NCBI GenBank assembly: GCA_025359905.1
Contig: JANYDF010000038.1
Span: 1-64,000 of the forward strand
DNA: 64,000 nucleotides
Direction: 5' to 3'
Source: Rhodospirillales bacterium
GTDB lineage: Bacteria > Pseudomonadota > Alphaproteobacteria > Acetobacterales > Acetobacteraceae
Numbering within the stretch: the stretch's first letter is position 1; each line of letters begins with the position of its first letter. Position numbers and translations under genes: made by a program. Below are positions 3,135-24,367 of the stretch, piece by piece. Under the pieces are notes generated by a model. That model had not been told where the DNA came from. It ran no database searches and was given only the letters and a program-made list of their open reading frames with translations.

Positions 3135-3876
3135 CGGCCAAGCCGTCGAGCGTGGCGGGCGCCATCAGCGCCAGCAGGCCGGGCACATCCACCTCGCCGC
3201 GGGCAAACGTGCGGACCAAGCGGCCGCTGCGCAGCACGCTGACGAAGTCGGCGAGTTCGGTGACTTCGTCGATGCGGTGGGTGATGAACAGGATCAGCCC
3301 GCCGCTTTGGGCGAAGCCGCGCATGAAGGCGAACACCGCATCGCGGTCGCCGTAGTCCAGCGCCGCCGTCACTTCGTCCAGAATCAGCACGCGCGGCTGC
3401 TTGGCCAGCGCACGGGCCAGCACGACCAATTGGCGCTGCGCCAGCGGCAGCGCCCCGGCGGGCGCGGCCACATTGATCGGCGAACGGGTGATCCGCGCCA
3501 GCAATTGCGCTGCCAGCCCCGCCCGCCCACTGCGCGCCACGGCGCGCGTCAGCAAGCCGTCGATGCCCAGCAAAATGTTATCCGTCACCGAGCGGTCCGG
3601 CGCGATCAACACCTCCTGAAACACCGTGCCGATCCCGCGCGCCTGCATCGCCACCGGGCGGAAATCGGCAACCGGTTCGCCCGCCAGCCGCACGGTGCCG
3701 CTGGTGGGGACGACAATGCCGGACAAGATTTTCACCAAAGTGCTTTTGCCCGACCCGTTTTCGCCCAGCACGGCATGGATCGACCCCGGCCGAAACGCGA
3801 TGGCGGCGCCGTCCAGCGCCACGGTTTCCCCGTAGCGTTTGGACAGCGCCGCCACCTCAAGCAAGGCTAGGCTCAC
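3124..3876 (-). CDS. Sugar ABC transporter ATPase, N-terminal half encoded as a separate gene
   Basis: A 250-residue ATPase domain equal to the first half of RbsA-type proteins. Walker A is GENGSGKSTLVKILSG, the signature region is LPLAQRQLVVLARAL (an unusual form of the family's LSVGQQQ), Walker B is VLILDEVTAAL and the switch His lies in LFITHRIDE. It starts at a GTG (3876) that overlaps the TGA of the binding-protein gene as GTGA. It ends at 3124, inside the start region of the gene for the C-terminal half. This half should hydrolyse ATP; the partner carries the degenerate site. Confidence 0.87.
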   Translation of the reverse strand: MSLALLEVAALSKRYGETVALDGAAIAFRPGSIHAVLGENGSGKSTLVKILSGIVVPTSGTVRLAGEPVADFRPVAMQARGIGTVFQEVLIAPDRSVTDNILLGIDGLLTRAVARSGRAGLAAQLLARITRSPINVAAPAGALPLAQRQLVVLARALAKQPRVLILDEVTAALDYGDRDAVFAFMRGFAQSGGLILFITHRIDEVTELADFVSVLRSGRLVRTFARGEVDVPGLLALMAPATLDGLADAA

Positions 3877-17931: not shown

Positions 17932-18756
17932 TTAAATTGTGCCGCCAAGCGCCGTCCAGCCGGACAGCGCCATGTAGGCGCCCAGCGCCACGATCAGCGC
18001 GCCCGACACATACGGCAATGCGGCCGCCGCCCGTGGCATTGCGGGCAAATGTTTCGCGGCCTGCCGCGCGCCGATGGCCGCCACGGCGCCAACCGCGACC
18101 AGCATGGCGGCCAGCCCAACGCTGAACGCCAGCACCAGCGAAAACCCCAGCACGGGCTGCTTGAGCCGCATGCACACCAGCAGCGCGGTAAACGCGGCCG
18201 GACACGGCAGCAGCCCGCCGCTGAGGCCGAACAGCACCACTTGGCTATTGCTCACCGCGCCACCCGTCAGATGGCGCTGCAAATCGCGAGCGTGTGCCGC
18301 CGTGTGAGCGTCCACGTGCCGATGATCGTGATTATGGTGATCGTGGCCGTGATCGTGGCCGTGGCCGTGGCCGTGGCCGTGGTCGTGGTCGTGGTCGTGA
18401 TGATGCCGCGTGCGTGCCGCGCCGCGTTGCTGCCGCCAGATTACGCTGGCGCCGATGGCCGCAATGGCAATGCCCGACAGCACCTGCAAGTAGGGATCCA
18501 TGTCCTCGGTGATGAACTGGTTGCCCCATAGTAGCGCCACCGCCGCCAGCACCCAGACCAGCAGCGAGTGAGAGAACGCCGCACTCAATCCGAGCAACAC
18601 CGCCTGCGCCCCGCTGCCGCGCGTGGCGGCAATGAAGGCGGCGATCATGGTTTTGCTGTGGCCTGGCTCCAGCGCATGCAACCCGCCCAGCACCAGCGCA
18701 GCCCCGATCAGCCACGGCACCGAGGAGGTGGCGATCAACCCTGCGTAGTCGGTCAT
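17932..18756 (-). CDS. NicO/RcnA-family nickel-cobalt transporter with long His-rich loop
   Basis: 274 residues with about six membrane segments. The family motif HALEPGHSKT lies in the first segment region and GGLLPCPAAFTALLV in the later half, as in RcnA efflux proteins. Between segments three and four, around residues 115-150, is a cytoplasmic or periplasmic loop made almost entirely of His, Asp and Gly with 22 or so His, a likely metal-binding reservoir. It starts ten bases after the NiCoT gene and is therefore co-transcribed with it. RcnA exports Ni/Co; some NicO proteins import, so direction is not certain. Confidence 0.88.
   Translation of the reverse strand: MTDYAGLIATSSVPWLIGAALVLGGLHALEPGHSKTMIAAFIAATRGSGAQAVLLGLSAAFSHSLLVWVLAAVALLWGNQFITEDMDPYLQVLSGIAIAAIGASVIWRQQRGAARTRHHHDHDHDHGHGHGHGHDHGHDHHNHDHRHVDAHTAAHARDLQRHLTGGAVSNSQVVLFGLSGGLLPCPAAFTALLVCMRLKQPVLGFSLVLAFSVGLAAMLVAVGAVAAIGARQAAKHLPAMPRAAAALPYVSGALIVALGAYMALSGWTALGGTI
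18328..18407. repeat. Imperfect 6-bp tandem repeat coding the His-rich loop
   Basis: Units of GTGGCC, GTGATC and GTGGTC follow each other in phase. On the coding strand they read as His-Gly or His-Asp pairs. Loss or gain of whole units would change loop length without shifting frame, so the number of metal-binding pairs may vary between strains. Confidence 0.7.
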
Positions 18757-18766
18757 CTAAAAACTC

Positions 18767-19849
18767 CTACTCGCCGCGCAGCGGGTCGGCGCCAGAGACG
18801 ATCACAGGAATGTCGTCGAATCGCTTGATACGGTAGATCGCCGCCGAGACGATCCAAGCCAGCACAAAGATGCCGATAATCCCGTAACCGATCAGACCGA
18901 AATTGTCGTTGGCGCTGCCCACCGCGTCCCAAAACCGCCCGGCCATGCCGAACCTGCCGCCAATCAACCCCAGCGCTTCGATGCCGCCCACCAGCAGCGC
19001 GATGACCACGCTGACCGAGGTGATGGTGATGTTGTAGTACAACTTGCGCAGCGGGCGGACGAACGCCCAGCCGTAGGCGCCCAGCATCAGAATCCCGTCG
19101 AGCGTATCAACCAGCGCCATGCCAACGGTGAACAGCAGCGGGAACACCAAGATTGCCCAGATCGGCAAACCCTTGGCCGCCTCGGCGCCGGAGATGCCGA
19201 GCAAACCGACCTCGGTTGCGGTATCGAAGCCGAGACCAAACAGAAGGCCGAGCGGGTACATGTGCCAGCTTCGGGAAATCAGCCGAAATAGCGGCCGGCA
19301 GAGGCGGTTGAGCAGTCCGCGCTGATCCAGCAAGTCCTGCACGCTTTTGTCATCGTACACCCCGCCCCGCCGCACCACCCGGAATGCGCCGAGCATGTCG
19401 AGCAGGATGGCGAGGTTGATGACCGCGACGATAACCAAGAACAGCGTTGACACCAAGGTTCCGGTGATCCCGCCAAGCTGCTTCAAACCGCCGATGCGGT
19501 CCTTGAACGCCAATGCGGTACCGGCGATGCCAGCCGAGGCGAGAAAAACAATGGTGGAATGACCGAGCGAAAAATACAGCCCCACCCCGGCCGGGCGGCC
19601 GCCCTCATGCATCAATTTACGCGTCACGTTGTCGATGGCGGCGATATGGTCGGCATCCACGGCGTGACGCAGCCCGAACGAATAAGCTAGCAGGCATGTG
19701 CCGATGAGCAGCGGGTAGTCGCGGAACACCAGCAGGGCCGCCACCCAGGCCGCCACATTGCCGACCGCCAGCATCCCCAGCATCCCAATGATGCGGTGGC
19801 GGAGCGGCGCGTCGCTACGGCCAAGCAAGCGGGCGAGTTGGGCGATCAT
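18767..19849 (-). CDS. NiCoT-family nickel/cobalt permease (HoxN/NixA type)
   Basis: 360 residues with eight predicted membrane segments. All four family signatures are present: RHAVDADHIAAIDNVTR in the second segment, FSLGHSTIVFLAS, LFGLGFDTATEVGLL and GMALVDTLDGILM. These permeases import Ni2+ or Co2+ with high affinity for enzymes such as urease, hydrogenase or B12-dependent enzymes. The next gene, ten bases on, encodes a NicO protein. Upstream (19850-20008) I looked for a B12 or NiCo riboswitch and saw none. Metal preference cannot be read. Confidence 0.93.
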   Translation of the reverse strand: MIAQLARLLGRSDAPLRHRIIGMLGMLAVGNVAAWVAALLVFRDYPLLIGTCLLAYSFGLRHAVDADHIAAIDNVTRKLMHEGGRPAGVGLYFSLGHSTIVFLASAGIAGTALAFKDRIGGLKQLGGITGTLVSTLFLVIVAVINLAILLDMLGAFRVVRRGGVYDDKSVQDLLDQRGLLNRLCRPLFRLISRSWHMYPLGLLFGLGFDTATEVGLLGISGAEAAKGLPIWAILVFPLLFTVGMALVDTLDGILMLGAYGWAFVRPLRKLYYNITITSVSVVIALLVGGIEALGLIGGRFGMAGRFWDAVGSANDNFGLIGYGIIGIFVLAWIVSAAIYRIKRFDDIPVIVSGADPLRGE

Positions 19850-20413: not shown

Positions 20414-21673
20414 ATGACCAGCCCTCCAACACACACCGCCGTGCTTGGCGCCGGGATAATCGGCGCCTGTTCGGCACTGGAATTGCTGCGCGACGGCCAC
20501 CGCGTCACCATCGTCGAACCCGGCCCGCCGGGCGGCGAGCAGGCGGCGAGCTACGGCAACGGTGGCTGGCTGTGCCCATGTTCGGTGCTGCCGGTCAGCG
20601 AGCCGGGGCTGTGGCGCAAGGTGCCGGGCTACCTCGCCGACCCGCTTGGGCCGCTGGCGATCCGCTGGCGCTATTTTCCAAAATTGCTGCCGTGGCTCAC
20701 TAAGTTTCTGCGGGCTGGGTCCAGCATGGGCCGGGTGCGCAAATTGGCGCGCAGCCTGCGCCCCTTGGTCGAAGGCAGCCCGGAGCGGCATTTGAAGCTG
20801 GCCACCGAAGCAGGCGTGGCCCATCTGATCGTGCGCACCGGGCTGATCTACGTGTATCCGTCGCGCGGCGATTTCCTGAAGGAAGCGCCGTTCTGGGCGA
20901 TCCGCCACGAAAACGGCGTGCGCTGGCTGGAACTGGATGCGCAGGAATTGCGCCAGCGTGAACCGCAACTCGACCGGCACTATCAATTCGGCGCTTTCAT
21001 CGAAGATGGCGGGCATTGCACCGACCCTGGCGCGTATGTGGCGGCCCTGGTGCGCCATGCTGTGTCGCTGGGCGCCATGCTGGTGCAAGCCGATGCAGTG
21101 GGCTTCGACATCGCCAATGGCCGGTTGCGCGGCGTGCGCACCGCCACCGGCACGATTGCCTGCGACCGCGCGGTGATCGCCGCCGGGGCCCGCTCGAAAG
21201 CCTTGGCGCTGGCGGCGGGCGACGACGTGCCGCTGGAAACCGAGCGCGGCTACCACGCCATGATCGCGACCCCCGAAGCCGGGCCGCGCCATCCGCTGAT
21301 GCCGAGCGACGGTAAAATGGTGAACACGCCAATGGCCGGCGGCTTGCGCAGCGCCGGGCAAGTGGAACTCGGCGGTCTGGAGGCGTTGCCCAACTGGAAG
21401 CGCGCCGAGATTTTGCGCGAACAGGCACGGCGGGCGTATCCGGGGCTTTCGGTGACGGATGTGAAGGTCTGGATGGGCCACCGCCCGTCGATGCCGGACA
21501 GTTTGCCGAATATCGGCCCGGCGAGCGGCTGCGCAGATGTCTTGCATGCCTATGGGCATGGGCATATCGGCCTTGCCTCGGGGGCAACGACCGGGCGTCT
21601 GGTGGCGGATTTGATCACCGGCAAGCCACCGGTGATCGATCCTGGGCCGTATTCGGTGCGGCGGTGGCGGTAG
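20414..21673 (+). CDS. FAD-dependent D-amino-acid dehydrogenase-like oxidoreductase (DadA/DAO family)
   Basis: 419 residues, the usual length. The N-terminal FAD site is AVLGAGIIGACSALELLRDG with a Glu ending the second strand (VTIVEPG). The glycine-rich ASYGNGGWLCPCSVLPVSEP is the DadA-type signature after it. Later blocks are GGHCTDPGAYVAALVRHA, AVIAAGARSKALALAAGDD, the DadA segment LETERGYHAMI and the C-terminal FAD loop HAYGHGHIGLASGATTGRLV. It should oxidise a D-amino acid or similar amine to the keto acid and pass electrons to quinones at the inner membrane. No racemase gene is adjacent, so the physiological substrate is open. Confidence 0.88.
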   Translation: MTSPPTHTAVLGAGIIGACSALELLRDGHRVTIVEPGPPGGEQAASYGNGGWLCPCSVLPVSEPGLWRKVPGYLADPLGPLAIRWRYFPKLLPWLTKFLRAGSSMGRVRKLARSLRPLVEGSPERHLKLATEAGVAHLIVRTGLIYVYPSRGDFLKEAPFWAIRHENGVRWLELDAQELRQREPQLDRHYQFGAFIEDGGHCTDPGAYVAALVRHAVSLGAMLVQADAVGFDIANGRLRGVRTATGTIACDRAVIAAGARSKALALAAGDDVPLETERGYHAMIATPEAGPRHPLMPSDGKMVNTPMAGGLRSAGQVELGGLEALPNWKRAEILREQARRAYPGLSVTDVKVWMGHRPSMPDSLPNIGPASGCADVLHAYGHGHIGLASGATTGRLVADLITGKPPVIDPGPYSVRRWR

Positions 21674-21694
21674 ACCGCTTGCATACAGCCATAA

Positions 21695-21710
21695 TTCGAC
21701 CATTCTCGAA
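21695..21710 (+). promoter_or_regulatory. Candidate ArsR operator upstream of the decayed arsenic operon
   Basis: TTCGA (21695-21699) and TCGAA (21706-21710) form an inverted repeat with a six-base spacer just before the arsR remnant. ArsR-type repressors bind imperfect TTCGAA-like palindromes at this location. With the repressor gene broken, the site is probably no longer regulated from here. Confidence 0.5.
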
Positions 21711-21712
21711 AC

Positions 21713-21917
21713 ATTGAAAAATCAGAAGCCGTCTCGACACTCGCCGCCCTCGCTCACGACACGCGGTTGGCAGTGTACCGGGTGCTGATACAGGCGGGGC
21801 CGATGGGGGTCGCTGCTGGCCTATCTGACCGAAAATTGCTGCCAAGGCGGCAACGGCATGCTGCCGGTCGCCGAAGGCTGCGGCCACGAAGCCCACGCTT
21901 GTTCGTGCGCTGGCTGA
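21713..21917 (+). pseudogene. arsR: arsR arsenic repressor remnant with internal deletion
   Basis: The start of an ArsR protein is readable from 21713 (ATT where ATG is expected): IEKSEAVSTLAALAHDTRLA then VYRVLIQAGPMG. In intact family members a helix-turn-helix and the metal-binding helix follow. Here the text jumps, in a different frame, to the family's C-terminus: SLLAYLTENCCQGGNGMLPV ending HACSCAG and TGA at 21915. About 40 residues, including the DNA-recognition helices, are missing at the junction near 21810-21818. The product cannot be a repressor. Confidence 0.75.
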
Positions 21918-21942
21918 CCGGTGCACCCAAGGAAAGCCCCCC

Positions 21943-22511
21943 ATGTCCATTTTTGAACGCTACCTCACCCTATGGGTGGCGCTGTGCATCGTCGCGGGCG
22001 GTCGGTGGGGCTGTACATCGTTGTGCCAGTGCTGCTGGCGCAACGCCTCCGCCGGGTGCTGCTCGGCCAAGGCGAGGCGGCGTTTGCCCGGGCGCTGCAC
22101 GCCATCCAGCCGCTTTCGCTGACCGCGCTGCTGGCGACGCTGGTGCTGCTGTTCGCGTTTCAGGGCGAGGAAATCGTCCGCCAGCCGCTGGTGATCGTGC
22201 TGCTGGCGGTGCCGATCCTGATCCAAGTGTACTTCAACGCTGGGCTGGCTTACCTGCTGAACCGCGCCAGCGGCGAAGCGCATTGCGTGGCCGGGCCGTC
22301 GGCGCTGATCGGGGCCAGCAATTTCTTCGAACTGGCGGTGGCCGCCGCGATCAGCCTGTTCGGCTTCACCTCGGGCGCAGCGCTGGCCACTGTGGTGGGC
22401 GTGCTGATCGAGGTCCCGGTGATGCTGACCATCGTGGTTATCGTGAACGGCTCGAAGGGCTGGTACGAAGCGGGCACCGCAGTGCGCCGGGTTGCTTTGG
22501 GGAGAGCGTGA
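21943..22511 (+). pseudogene. acr3: acr3-type arsenite exporter remnant with internal deletion
   Basis: ATG at 21943 follows a GGAAAG site and opens with the family's N-terminus MSIFERYLTLWVALCIVAGG. At about 22000 the frame changes and the text continues as the C-terminal half of ACR3: SVGLYIVVPVLLAQRLRRVL, then VYFNAGLAYLLNRASGEAHC, VAGPSALIGASNFFELAVAA and FGFTSGAALATVVGVLIEVP. Roughly half of the ten-helix transporter is lost and the pieces are out of frame. Known ACR3 proteins are about 350 residues and need the N-terminal half with its essential Cys, so no export is expected. Confidence 0.78.
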
Positions 22512-22513
22512 AC

Positions 22514-22924
22514 ATGACTGACGCTGCCAACATCACGATCTATCACAATCCGGCCTGTGGTACCTCGCGCAATGTGCTGGGGTTGATCCGCAACAGCGGC
22601 GCGCAACCGCGCGTGGTTGAGTACCTGAAAACGCCGCCATCCCGCGAAACATTGCTTGGCATGATTGCCGCCATGGGTCTCACCCCGCGCGGGTTGCTGC
22701 GCAAGAAGGGCACGCCTTACGAGACACTCGGGTTGGACAATCGAGCGTTGAGCGACGACCAGATTGTCGACGCCATGCTCGCGCACCCAATCCTGATCGA
22801 GCGGCCAATCGTGGTGACGCCGCTCGGCACCAAGCTGTGCCGCCCATCTGAGGCGGTGCTGGACATCCTCCCCGAACCGCAACGCGGCGGGTTCTACAAG
22901 GAGGACGGTGCCAAAGTGGTGTGA
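22514..22924 (+). CDS. arsC: Arsenate reductase, glutaredoxin-dependent type
   Basis: 136 residues, intact. Catalytic Cys15 lies in ITIYHNPACGTSRNVLGLIR, the signature of the plasmid R773-type ArsC that reduces arsenate to arsenite with glutathione and glutaredoxin. The conserved arginines are visible in ERPIVVTPLGTKLCRPSEAV and in the helix LTPRGLLRKKGTPYETLG. A GGGAGAG ribosome site precedes the ATG at 22514, three bases after the acr3 remnant. With the exporter broken, reducing arsenate would leave more toxic arsenite inside the cell unless another exporter exists elsewhere. Confidence 0.93.
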   Translation: MTDAANITIYHNPACGTSRNVLGLIRNSGAQPRVVEYLKTPPSRETLLGMIAAMGLTPRGLLRKKGTPYETLGLDNRALSDDQIVDAMLAHPILIERPIVVTPLGTKLCRPSEAVLDILPEPQRGGFYKEDGAKVV

Positions 22925-22931
22925 GACCCAC

Positions 22932-23696
22932 CTAAAGCAGCCGCTGCAACGCCAGACATACCGGCACCATGTCCGGGATCAGCAACGTGGTGAAGCGGTC
23001 CAGCGCCGGGCGGATTTCCGCGATATTGGCCGGCGGCGGGCCTGGATTGGGCAGCAGGGCAGCGGCTTGGGCTGCATTCGCGGTCGCTGTGCGGGTGGCC
23101 CGCAGCGTGTCGGGCACCAGAAGCGGCGCGAGGGCGCACGGCAAGGCGGCAATCAGCTCTGGCCATGGCGCCAGCGCCAAATACAGGCTTGGCACCACTG
23201 AGTCGCCAGCGCCGTCGTGGCGGGCTGCAAGCGCCCGTACGCTGGCGGCAACCTCCGGCGCAAGCGAATCCAACCGGGGCAGAGGCCGCAGTTTTGGCGC
23301 CGAGCGCGGTATTGGGCTGGGCGTCAGCGCCGCTGGCGGGCGGGCGCCGTCCAGCCACAGCCGCAAGCCTGTCAGCGTCAGAAGATTGGTCAGATTGCCT
23401 CGGGCGTAGGCGTCGATCACGATGCGGGCGCCGACGGGGGCGCGGAAGTTGACCGGGGCCAGCGGCGGCAACGGCACCGCCGCCGCCAGCCGGGCGCGGG
23501 CCTCAGCAAGTTCGGCGCTCGCCATCACTGGGCGCAGCGCCGCCCACGCCCAGTCCAGCACACCGCCCGGCAACGCGGCAAAGTGCCGCCAAATCAAATT
23601 CACCACCGGCACGCCAGAGACAGCGCGTAAGTCGGCGTAGATGGCGGCCACCGCTGGCGGGGCCTCGGATTCGGGAATTTGCGGCAGGGCGTTCAT
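22932..23696 (-). CDS. DehI-type (group I) haloacid dehalogenase-like protein
   Basis: 254 residues, somewhat shorter than DehI of Pseudomonas (about 300 from memory). The opening IPESEAPPAVAAIYADLRAV and VPVVNLIWRHFAALPGGVLD matches the family. An internal pseudo-repeat supports it: the second half repeats the pattern as VVPSLYLALAPWPELIAALP. DehI enzymes hydrolyse both D- and L-2-haloalkanoic acids by direct water attack. I cannot place the catalytic Asp with certainty; the Asp residues in ARHDGAGDSVV are candidates. It overlaps by four bases the gene for a group II dehalogenase upstream, strong context for haloacid catabolism. Confidence 0.65.
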   Translation of the reverse strand: MNALPQIPESEAPPAVAAIYADLRAVSGVPVVNLIWRHFAALPGGVLDWAWAALRPVMASAELAEARARLAAAVPLPPLAPVNFRAPVGARIVIDAYARGNLTNLLTLTGLRLWLDGARPPAALTPSPIPRSAPKLRPLPRLDSLAPEVAASVRALAARHDGAGDSVVPSLYLALAPWPELIAALPCALAPLLVPDTLRATRTATANAAQAAALLPNPGPPPANIAEIRPALDRFTTLLIPDMVPVCLALQRLL

Positions 23697-24367
23697 CGGA
23701 TCAGCAATCCTGGCAATGCGGCGAGGCTATCGATTTCAGCGTCCGGCGCGCCGGGCAGCCGTTCGCGGCGCTGGGCGTAGCGGTTGCACCACACGACCCG
23801 CATGCCGAACGCCGAAGCGGCGTGCGCGTCCCATGCATTGGACGACTGGAAGCACACTTGGGCAGCTTGCACCCCCAGCGTGTCGAGCGCGTATTGGTAA
23901 GCGGCCGGATGGGTCTTGAAGCGGCGCACCGCATCGACCGACAGGACGGCGTCAAACAATCCAGCAATGCCTGCGCTGCGGACGGCCGCTTCCAGCATGA
24001 CCGGCGCGCCGTTCGACAGAATGGCGGTGACAAACCCAGCCTCACGCAAGGCCCGCAGCACGCCGGGCACCTCGGGGAACGCGCTGAGCGAGAGGTACAA
24101 TTCCATCAACTGCGGATGCAGGGCCGTGGGCAAGTTCAGCGTGTCGAGCGCAAAATCGAGCGCTTCGCCAGTGACTTGCCAAAAGTCGGCGTAGCAGTCT
24201 TGCAAGGTGCGCAGCCATGTGTATTGCAATTGCTTGTCGCGCCATAGCGCGCTGAGCGCCGTCCGGCTTTCGGCCGGCACACCGGGGCAACGCGCGGCAG
24301 CAGTGGCGAAATCGAACACCGTGCCATAGGCGTCGAACACGCAGGCTCGGATGCCGGTGAGGCTCAT
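23693..24367 (-). CDS. L-2-haloacid dehalogenase, HAD type II
   Basis: 224 residues, the family length. The nucleophile Asp12 is in VFDAYGTVFDFATAA. The substrate Arg lies in QYTWLRTLQDCYADFW, the second HAD motif is AILSNGAP, the Lys is in RRFKTHPAAYQYAL, and the type II signature is FQSSNAWDAHAASAFGMRVV then WCNR. These residues separate true dehalogenases from general HAD phosphatases. The enzyme hydrolyses L-2-haloacids to D-2-hydroxyacids through an aspartyl ester. It is the first gene of a two-gene operon with the DehI-like protein, and starts 80 bases from a divergent DsbA-family gene. Confidence 0.92.
   Translation of the reverse strand: MSLTGIRACVFDAYGTVFDFATAAARCPGVPAESRTALSALWRDKQLQYTWLRTLQDCYADFWQVTGEALDFALDTLNLPTALHPQLMELYLSLSAFPEVPGVLRALREAGFVTAILSNGAPVMLEAAVRSAGIAGLFDAVLSVDAVRRFKTHPAAYQYALDTLGVQAAQVCFQSSNAWDAHAASAFGMRVVWCNRYAQRRERLPGAPDAEIDSLAALPGLLIR

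Follow-up and report, generated by a model that had tools for sequence, protein, structure and literature searches.

What becomes of an arsenic resistance operon when the genes for its repressor and its pump have each lost their middle and the gene for its reductase is whole? The question is raised by positions 21695-22924 of a 64,000-nucleotide stretch of DNA (the window) that is part of contig JANYDF010000038.1 (C59) of a Rhodospirillales bacterium (Acetobacteraceae); the source genome (G000) is a 4.63 Mb assembly in 162 contigs that is 97.56% complete. By sequence comparison, this segment is what remains of an arsR-acr3-arsC operon in which arsR and acr3 are broken and arsC is whole, and the boundaries given in the original prediction are right, with the operator starting at 21695 and arsC stopping at 22924. 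We interpret the locus as a chromosomal operon that is very probably in early pseudogenization, that is, in recent and ordinary gene decay. Its features and its two neighbors are as follows:

20414 to 21673: FAD-dependent oxidoreductase (PF01266), one neighbor of the ars operon
21690 to 21695, plus strand: CATAAT, putative -10-like hexamer of the presumed ars promoter, read by eye
21695 to 21710, plus strand: presumed ArsR operator, TTCGACCATTCTCGAA, a perfect palindrome with 5-bp arms
21713 to 21820, plus strand: arsR 5' fragment, an open frame that matches residues 2-41 of the ArsR of G001, with ATT at the start position
21810 to 21917, plus strand: arsR 3' fragment (SLLAYLTENCCQGG...CSCAG, stop), 73% identical to residues 80-116 of the G001 ArsR
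21811 to 21820, plus strand: arsR deletion junction, CGCTGCTGGC, whose letters fit either flank; net loss 146 bp, extent of the repeat presumed
21943 to 21999, plus strand: acr3 5' fragment, codons 1-19 with the ATG present, placed by alignment with 11 uninterrupted Acr3 proteins
22000 to 22001, plus strand: GG, the two bases between the acr3 fragments, at the point of deletion; net loss 484 bp
22002 to 22511, plus strand: acr3 3' fragment from residue 182 to the C-terminus, with TM6 (most of it) to TM10, matching TIGR00832 positions 177-326
22514 to 22924, plus strand: arsC, intact glutaredoxin-type arsenate reductase (TIGR00014 above cut-off; PF03960)
22932 to 24367, opposing direction: DehI-like/HAD gene pair, the other neighbor of the ars operon

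The two ends of arsR are open in clashing frames. When the 116-residue ArsR of G001, a congener, is compared with the source genome, its residues 80-116 match at 21804-21914 (73% identity) and its residues 2-41 at 21716-21832 (59%); apart from these two, the genome has a single match, distant (36%) and on contig C114. Taken by itself, the 5' reading matches no NCBIfam family, so its identity hangs on the match to the G001 ArsR. A hand count of codons against that protein puts the net loss at 146 bp, which is no multiple of three, and the codon at the homologous start (21713) is ATT, where the intact genes of G001 (L098) and G020 (L102) have ATG and similar codons. Neither a start codon nor an uninterrupted winged-helix region, as an ArsR has, is therefore present. 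The letters CGCTGCTGGC at the junction fit the left flank, where they would encode the conserved x-A-A-G, as well as the right flank, where they would encode the conserved L-L-A; judged from the flanks, the junction may thus sit on a repeat as long as 9-10 bp. The left-flank reading needs GCT twice, and this codon accounts for 6.8% of the alanine codons in the predicted genes of the window; given this rarity, the left-side match could be due to chance, in which case the real overlap would be shorter. The arsR 5' frame also runs free of stops for 409 codons into arsC (21698-22924), and we considered a fusion reading; however, the run is unremarkable, as 40 runs are at least that long when stop-to-stop runs, real genes included, are counted in all six frames of the GC-rich window.

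The damage to acr3 is of the same kind. When it is aligned with the uninterrupted Acr3 proteins of relatives (11 in all), its 5' and 3' parts fall in different frames, and a hand count against the 342-residue Acr3 of G020 gives a net loss of 484 bp (codons 20-181), again no multiple of three. TIGR00832 matches the 3' part with 162.7 bits (cut-off 282.8) over positions 177-326 of 327, that is, not over its full length. With a simple hydropathy measure, the G020 Acr3 has 10 segments and the remnant in the window has four above threshold, not the ten helices of the family; the deletion takes segments 2-5 together with four residues from the start of the sixth; segment 1 is left out of frame with the remainder. 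In the G020 protein, the conserved cysteine is residue 126, in the fourth segment, and the late glutamate is residue 318; the equivalent of the cysteine lies within the deleted stretch, and the glutamate is retained in the LIEVP motif of the 3' part. PMC9671657 calls the TM4 cysteine essential in Acr3 and the late-helix glutamate a key residue.

As read from the sequence, neither a readable repressor nor a ten-helix exporter thus remains after two separate frame-breaking deletions and the loss of the arsR start. The alignment to intact relatives that had been proposed as a check bears out a decayed operon with an internal deletion in each of the two genes, the ends matching intact relatives in clashing frames and the net losses being 146 bp (arsR against G001) and 484 bp (acr3 against G020). 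Direct repeats, which had been suggested for both junctions, are found at most in arsR (up to the presumed 9-10 bp); the acr3 junction has only 0-1 bp of common letters, so a repeat-driven origin, considered for both deletions, is rejected for the one in acr3. The original prediction also considered it odd that both deletions spare the termini; we find this unpersuasive, because any deletion inside a gene leaves its ends.

The third gene is intact, as had been claimed: the encoded ArsC is full length and scores 138.9 bits against TIGR00014 (cut-off 106.05). The catalytic Cys of a glutaredoxin-type ArsC (in NPACGTSRN) and its three arginines are present as read by eye; we assume the roles of these residues from R773 ArsC. 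A search of the source genome with the ArsC protein returns only the protein itself.

Upstream of arsR, TTCGA-N6-TCGAA occurs at one site in the whole window, where 0.02 are expected and two of 100 shuffled sequences had one. In both G001 and G020 a palindrome also lies at -18 to -3 of the arsR start, with arm letters that differ from those in the window; the arms match in 4/5 positions in G001 and in 5/5 in G020 (TTCCA/TGGAA). We then surveyed 10 arsR genes from eight relatives (12 ArsR-like entries less a start-less one and the second gene of L110): TTC-N10-GAA with 4/5 or 5/5 arms precedes four of the 10, in the same position in two of those four, and is absent upstream of the other six. 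A surviving operator, as first proposed, is thus plausible for TTCGACCATTCTCGAA, given its uniqueness in the window and the shared position of the palindrome in the two relatives.

How old is the damage? For the 3' part of acr3 we used 91 homologues from 93 loci, a biased set in that part of it comprises the best 80 by similarity. The 510-bp remnant shows a single deviation (V to I) across the 82 positions with at least 95% conservation; among the homologues, 54 have none, 27 have one and 10 have two to four. The remnant therefore ranks 37th-39th of 92 by deviations; it also ranks 37th of 92 by median pN/pS, a measure for which the synonymous sites of the pairs are already very diverged. If the remnant has drifted freely since it was broken, neutral drift amounts to at most approximately 2.7% per site (Poisson bound); as a yardstick, the DNA identity to G001 at neighboring genes is 73-79%. 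These few changes imply that the loss is recent, as had been suggested. For arsC, no deviation is seen across the 32 positions with conservation of at least 95%, and two are seen across the 47 with 90%, giving ranks of 20th (tied) and 14th, respectively, of 53. Because an acr3 remnant that no longer functions has stayed just as clean, the preservation of arsC tells nothing about selection; a short time suffices to explain it.

We then asked whether the genome contains another exit route for arsenic; the search covered acr3, arsB, arsP, aquaglyceroporins and the ArsI-like gene. In the source genome, ACR3 and SBF are each matched once, in both cases by the acr3 remnant, so the second arsB or acr3 that was to be looked for has no match in the assembly. 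ArsB, ArsP and the ArsI-like protein of G001 (a name that we presume for its glyoxalase-family gene product) likewise have no match in the assembly, and an MIP channel, the mark of an aquaglyceroporin-type ars operon, also gives none; for comparison, G001 has three MIP-matching stretches, two of them on contig C187. An exporter could lie hidden in the missing 2.4% of the genome. Across 60 genomes, including the source, the Acr3 family is matched to some extent in 25 and above the cut-off in 17; the source falls below it and G001 has no match. Among the 20 listed of 2977 matching plasmid records, none covers 80% of the query in one place; thus, by sequence match, there is no copy of the broken ars form on plasmids among the matches listed.

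When 12 other proteins of the window were scanned (i.e., excluding ArsC and the acr3 remnant), 11 had a near-complete domain match, including an enolase cut only by the edge of the window. The exception is the DehI-like protein, in which the match covers 43 of 148 positions and is below its cut-off; this protein is possibly broken, but a partial match may mean merely that it is divergent. Elsewhere in the window, two adjoining genes of the NicO family (nickel/cobalt transport) are located at 17932-19849, each with a PF03824 match of near full length.

The closest known arrangement is the arsR-acr3-arsC operon of G020 (L102), which has the same gene order, a palindrome just upstream of arsR and a glutaredoxin-type arsC directly after acr3; however, its three genes are uninterrupted, whereas arsR and acr3 are broken in the window. 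In G001, whose GlmS is 86% identical, the right flank is syntenic, with arsC (75%) and, further on, DehI/HAD (73%) and DsbA (75%); the counterpart of the oxidoreductase is on a different contig, adjoining a PIN-domain gene. The order in G001 is a glyoxalase-family gene, arsC and an MIP channel gene (L123, G001:C187, 1-1411), and the glyoxalase-family gene is 97% identical to its counterpart in the other ars cluster of G001. As in aquaglyceroporin-type operons (an example is the ars operon of S. meliloti with AqpS, as described in PMC6205960 and PMC4435449), arsC in the window is found without a working Acr3; unlike them, the window's genome is without any MIP match, whereas in G001 the MIP gene adjoins arsC. 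The exporter type thus appears to have been swapped within the genus, with acr3-arsC in the window and an MIP channel by arsC in G001. With respect to lateral gain of the whole operon, the divergence of arsC from G001 (75%) is like that of its neighbors (73-79%), yet G001 has no ACR3 match.

Two further, apparently broken ars genes were observed in relatives. In G021, a member of the same family, the 3' part of acr3 occurs alone at 1563-2054 on the minus strand (L114, G021:C155:60000-62677), adjoining a PglZ-domain gene. A deletion event common to this gene and the one in the window is rejected, as the G021 remnant starts at profile position 166 rather than 177 and abuts the PglZ-domain gene; judged from these sequences, its truncation looks independent and accidental. 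In the second ars cluster of G001 (L098, G001:C449:4000-8139), a low-molecular-weight phosphatase-type arsC at 3261-3780 appears to be split over two frames; PF01451 matches its first part and no family its second, and a sequencing error is possible.

Three other explanations deserve consideration. The true operon might be intact, two pieces having been dropped by the assembler or in gap-filling; the assembly is a draft in 162 contigs, and the arsR junction is possibly on a 9-10 bp repeat. However, the usual k-mers are far longer than the repeats here (10 bp or less and 0-1 bp), and assemblers seldom collapse repeats of this size, which makes an assembly fault unlikely; moreover, the junctions are approximately 180 bp apart, the window contains no letter N, the lost arsR and acr3 pieces are found nowhere else in the 97.6%-complete assembly, and the arsR start codon is lost as well. 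We consider an artefact very unlikely. Slightly less so, but still improbable, is that selection has kept arsC for some function besides arsenate resistance, or together with an undetected arsenite exit, once the pump became dispensable. Its lack of deviations at the most conserved positions would agree with this, and the arsC of G001, with its MIP channel gene and no ACR3 match, establishes that arsC without acr3 exists in the genus; but the dead part of acr3 is equally unchanged, so conservation cannot show selection here, and the window's own genome lacks an MIP match. The original proposal that arsC is kept for another use is therefore not supported.

The remaining possibility is that a half-size Acr3 (about TM6-10) is made from the 179-codon ORF at 21972-22511 and is active, e.g., as a dimer. 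The ORF is open and unrelaxed and stops 2 bp ahead of arsC, and G021 likewise retains only the 3' part of acr3; against this, the product would lack the essential TM4 cysteine and the first TM6 residues, has just the four hydrophobic segments and would start at an out-of-frame ATG within the former acr3 5' end, and the G021 gene is cut at another point. We regard it as highly improbable, and equally so its extension to a functional truncation, in which a derepressed operon would still make the acr3 3' half (approximately one of two five-helix halves) and, with constitutive ArsC, constitute a stripped-down working system.

Ordinary recent decay is the reading that we prefer. The deletions would have arisen by illegitimate recombination or replication slippage, that in arsR possibly at the 9-10 bp repeat and that in acr3 with essentially no homology, and the lineage was probably no longer exposed to arsenic. 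With the repressor gone, the promoter would be permanently on and ArsC may be constitutive; the cell is predicted to be sensitive to both arsenate and arsenite, and arsC would simply not yet have been hit. One counterpoint is that two large deletions and a start loss, with scarcely any point changes, fall within 300 bp and a short time; this cluster of damage could be one complex event or, less likely, an assembly fault. Ordinary internal-deletion pseudogenes share the frame-shifting deletions, the missing start codon and the loss of an accessory trait; nothing substantial differs from them, and only the pairing in adjoining genes with little other damage is noteworthy. The case is one of ordinary recent pseudogenization, and the more exotic suggestions are unsupported.

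The locus is thus a snapshot of an accessory resistance operon that is dying, with the repressor and the pump broken and the enzyme still whole. Arsenic resistance does not follow from the presence of an intact arsC in a genome; and an intact neighbor of dead genes is no evidence of a new function before the elapsed time has been estimated.
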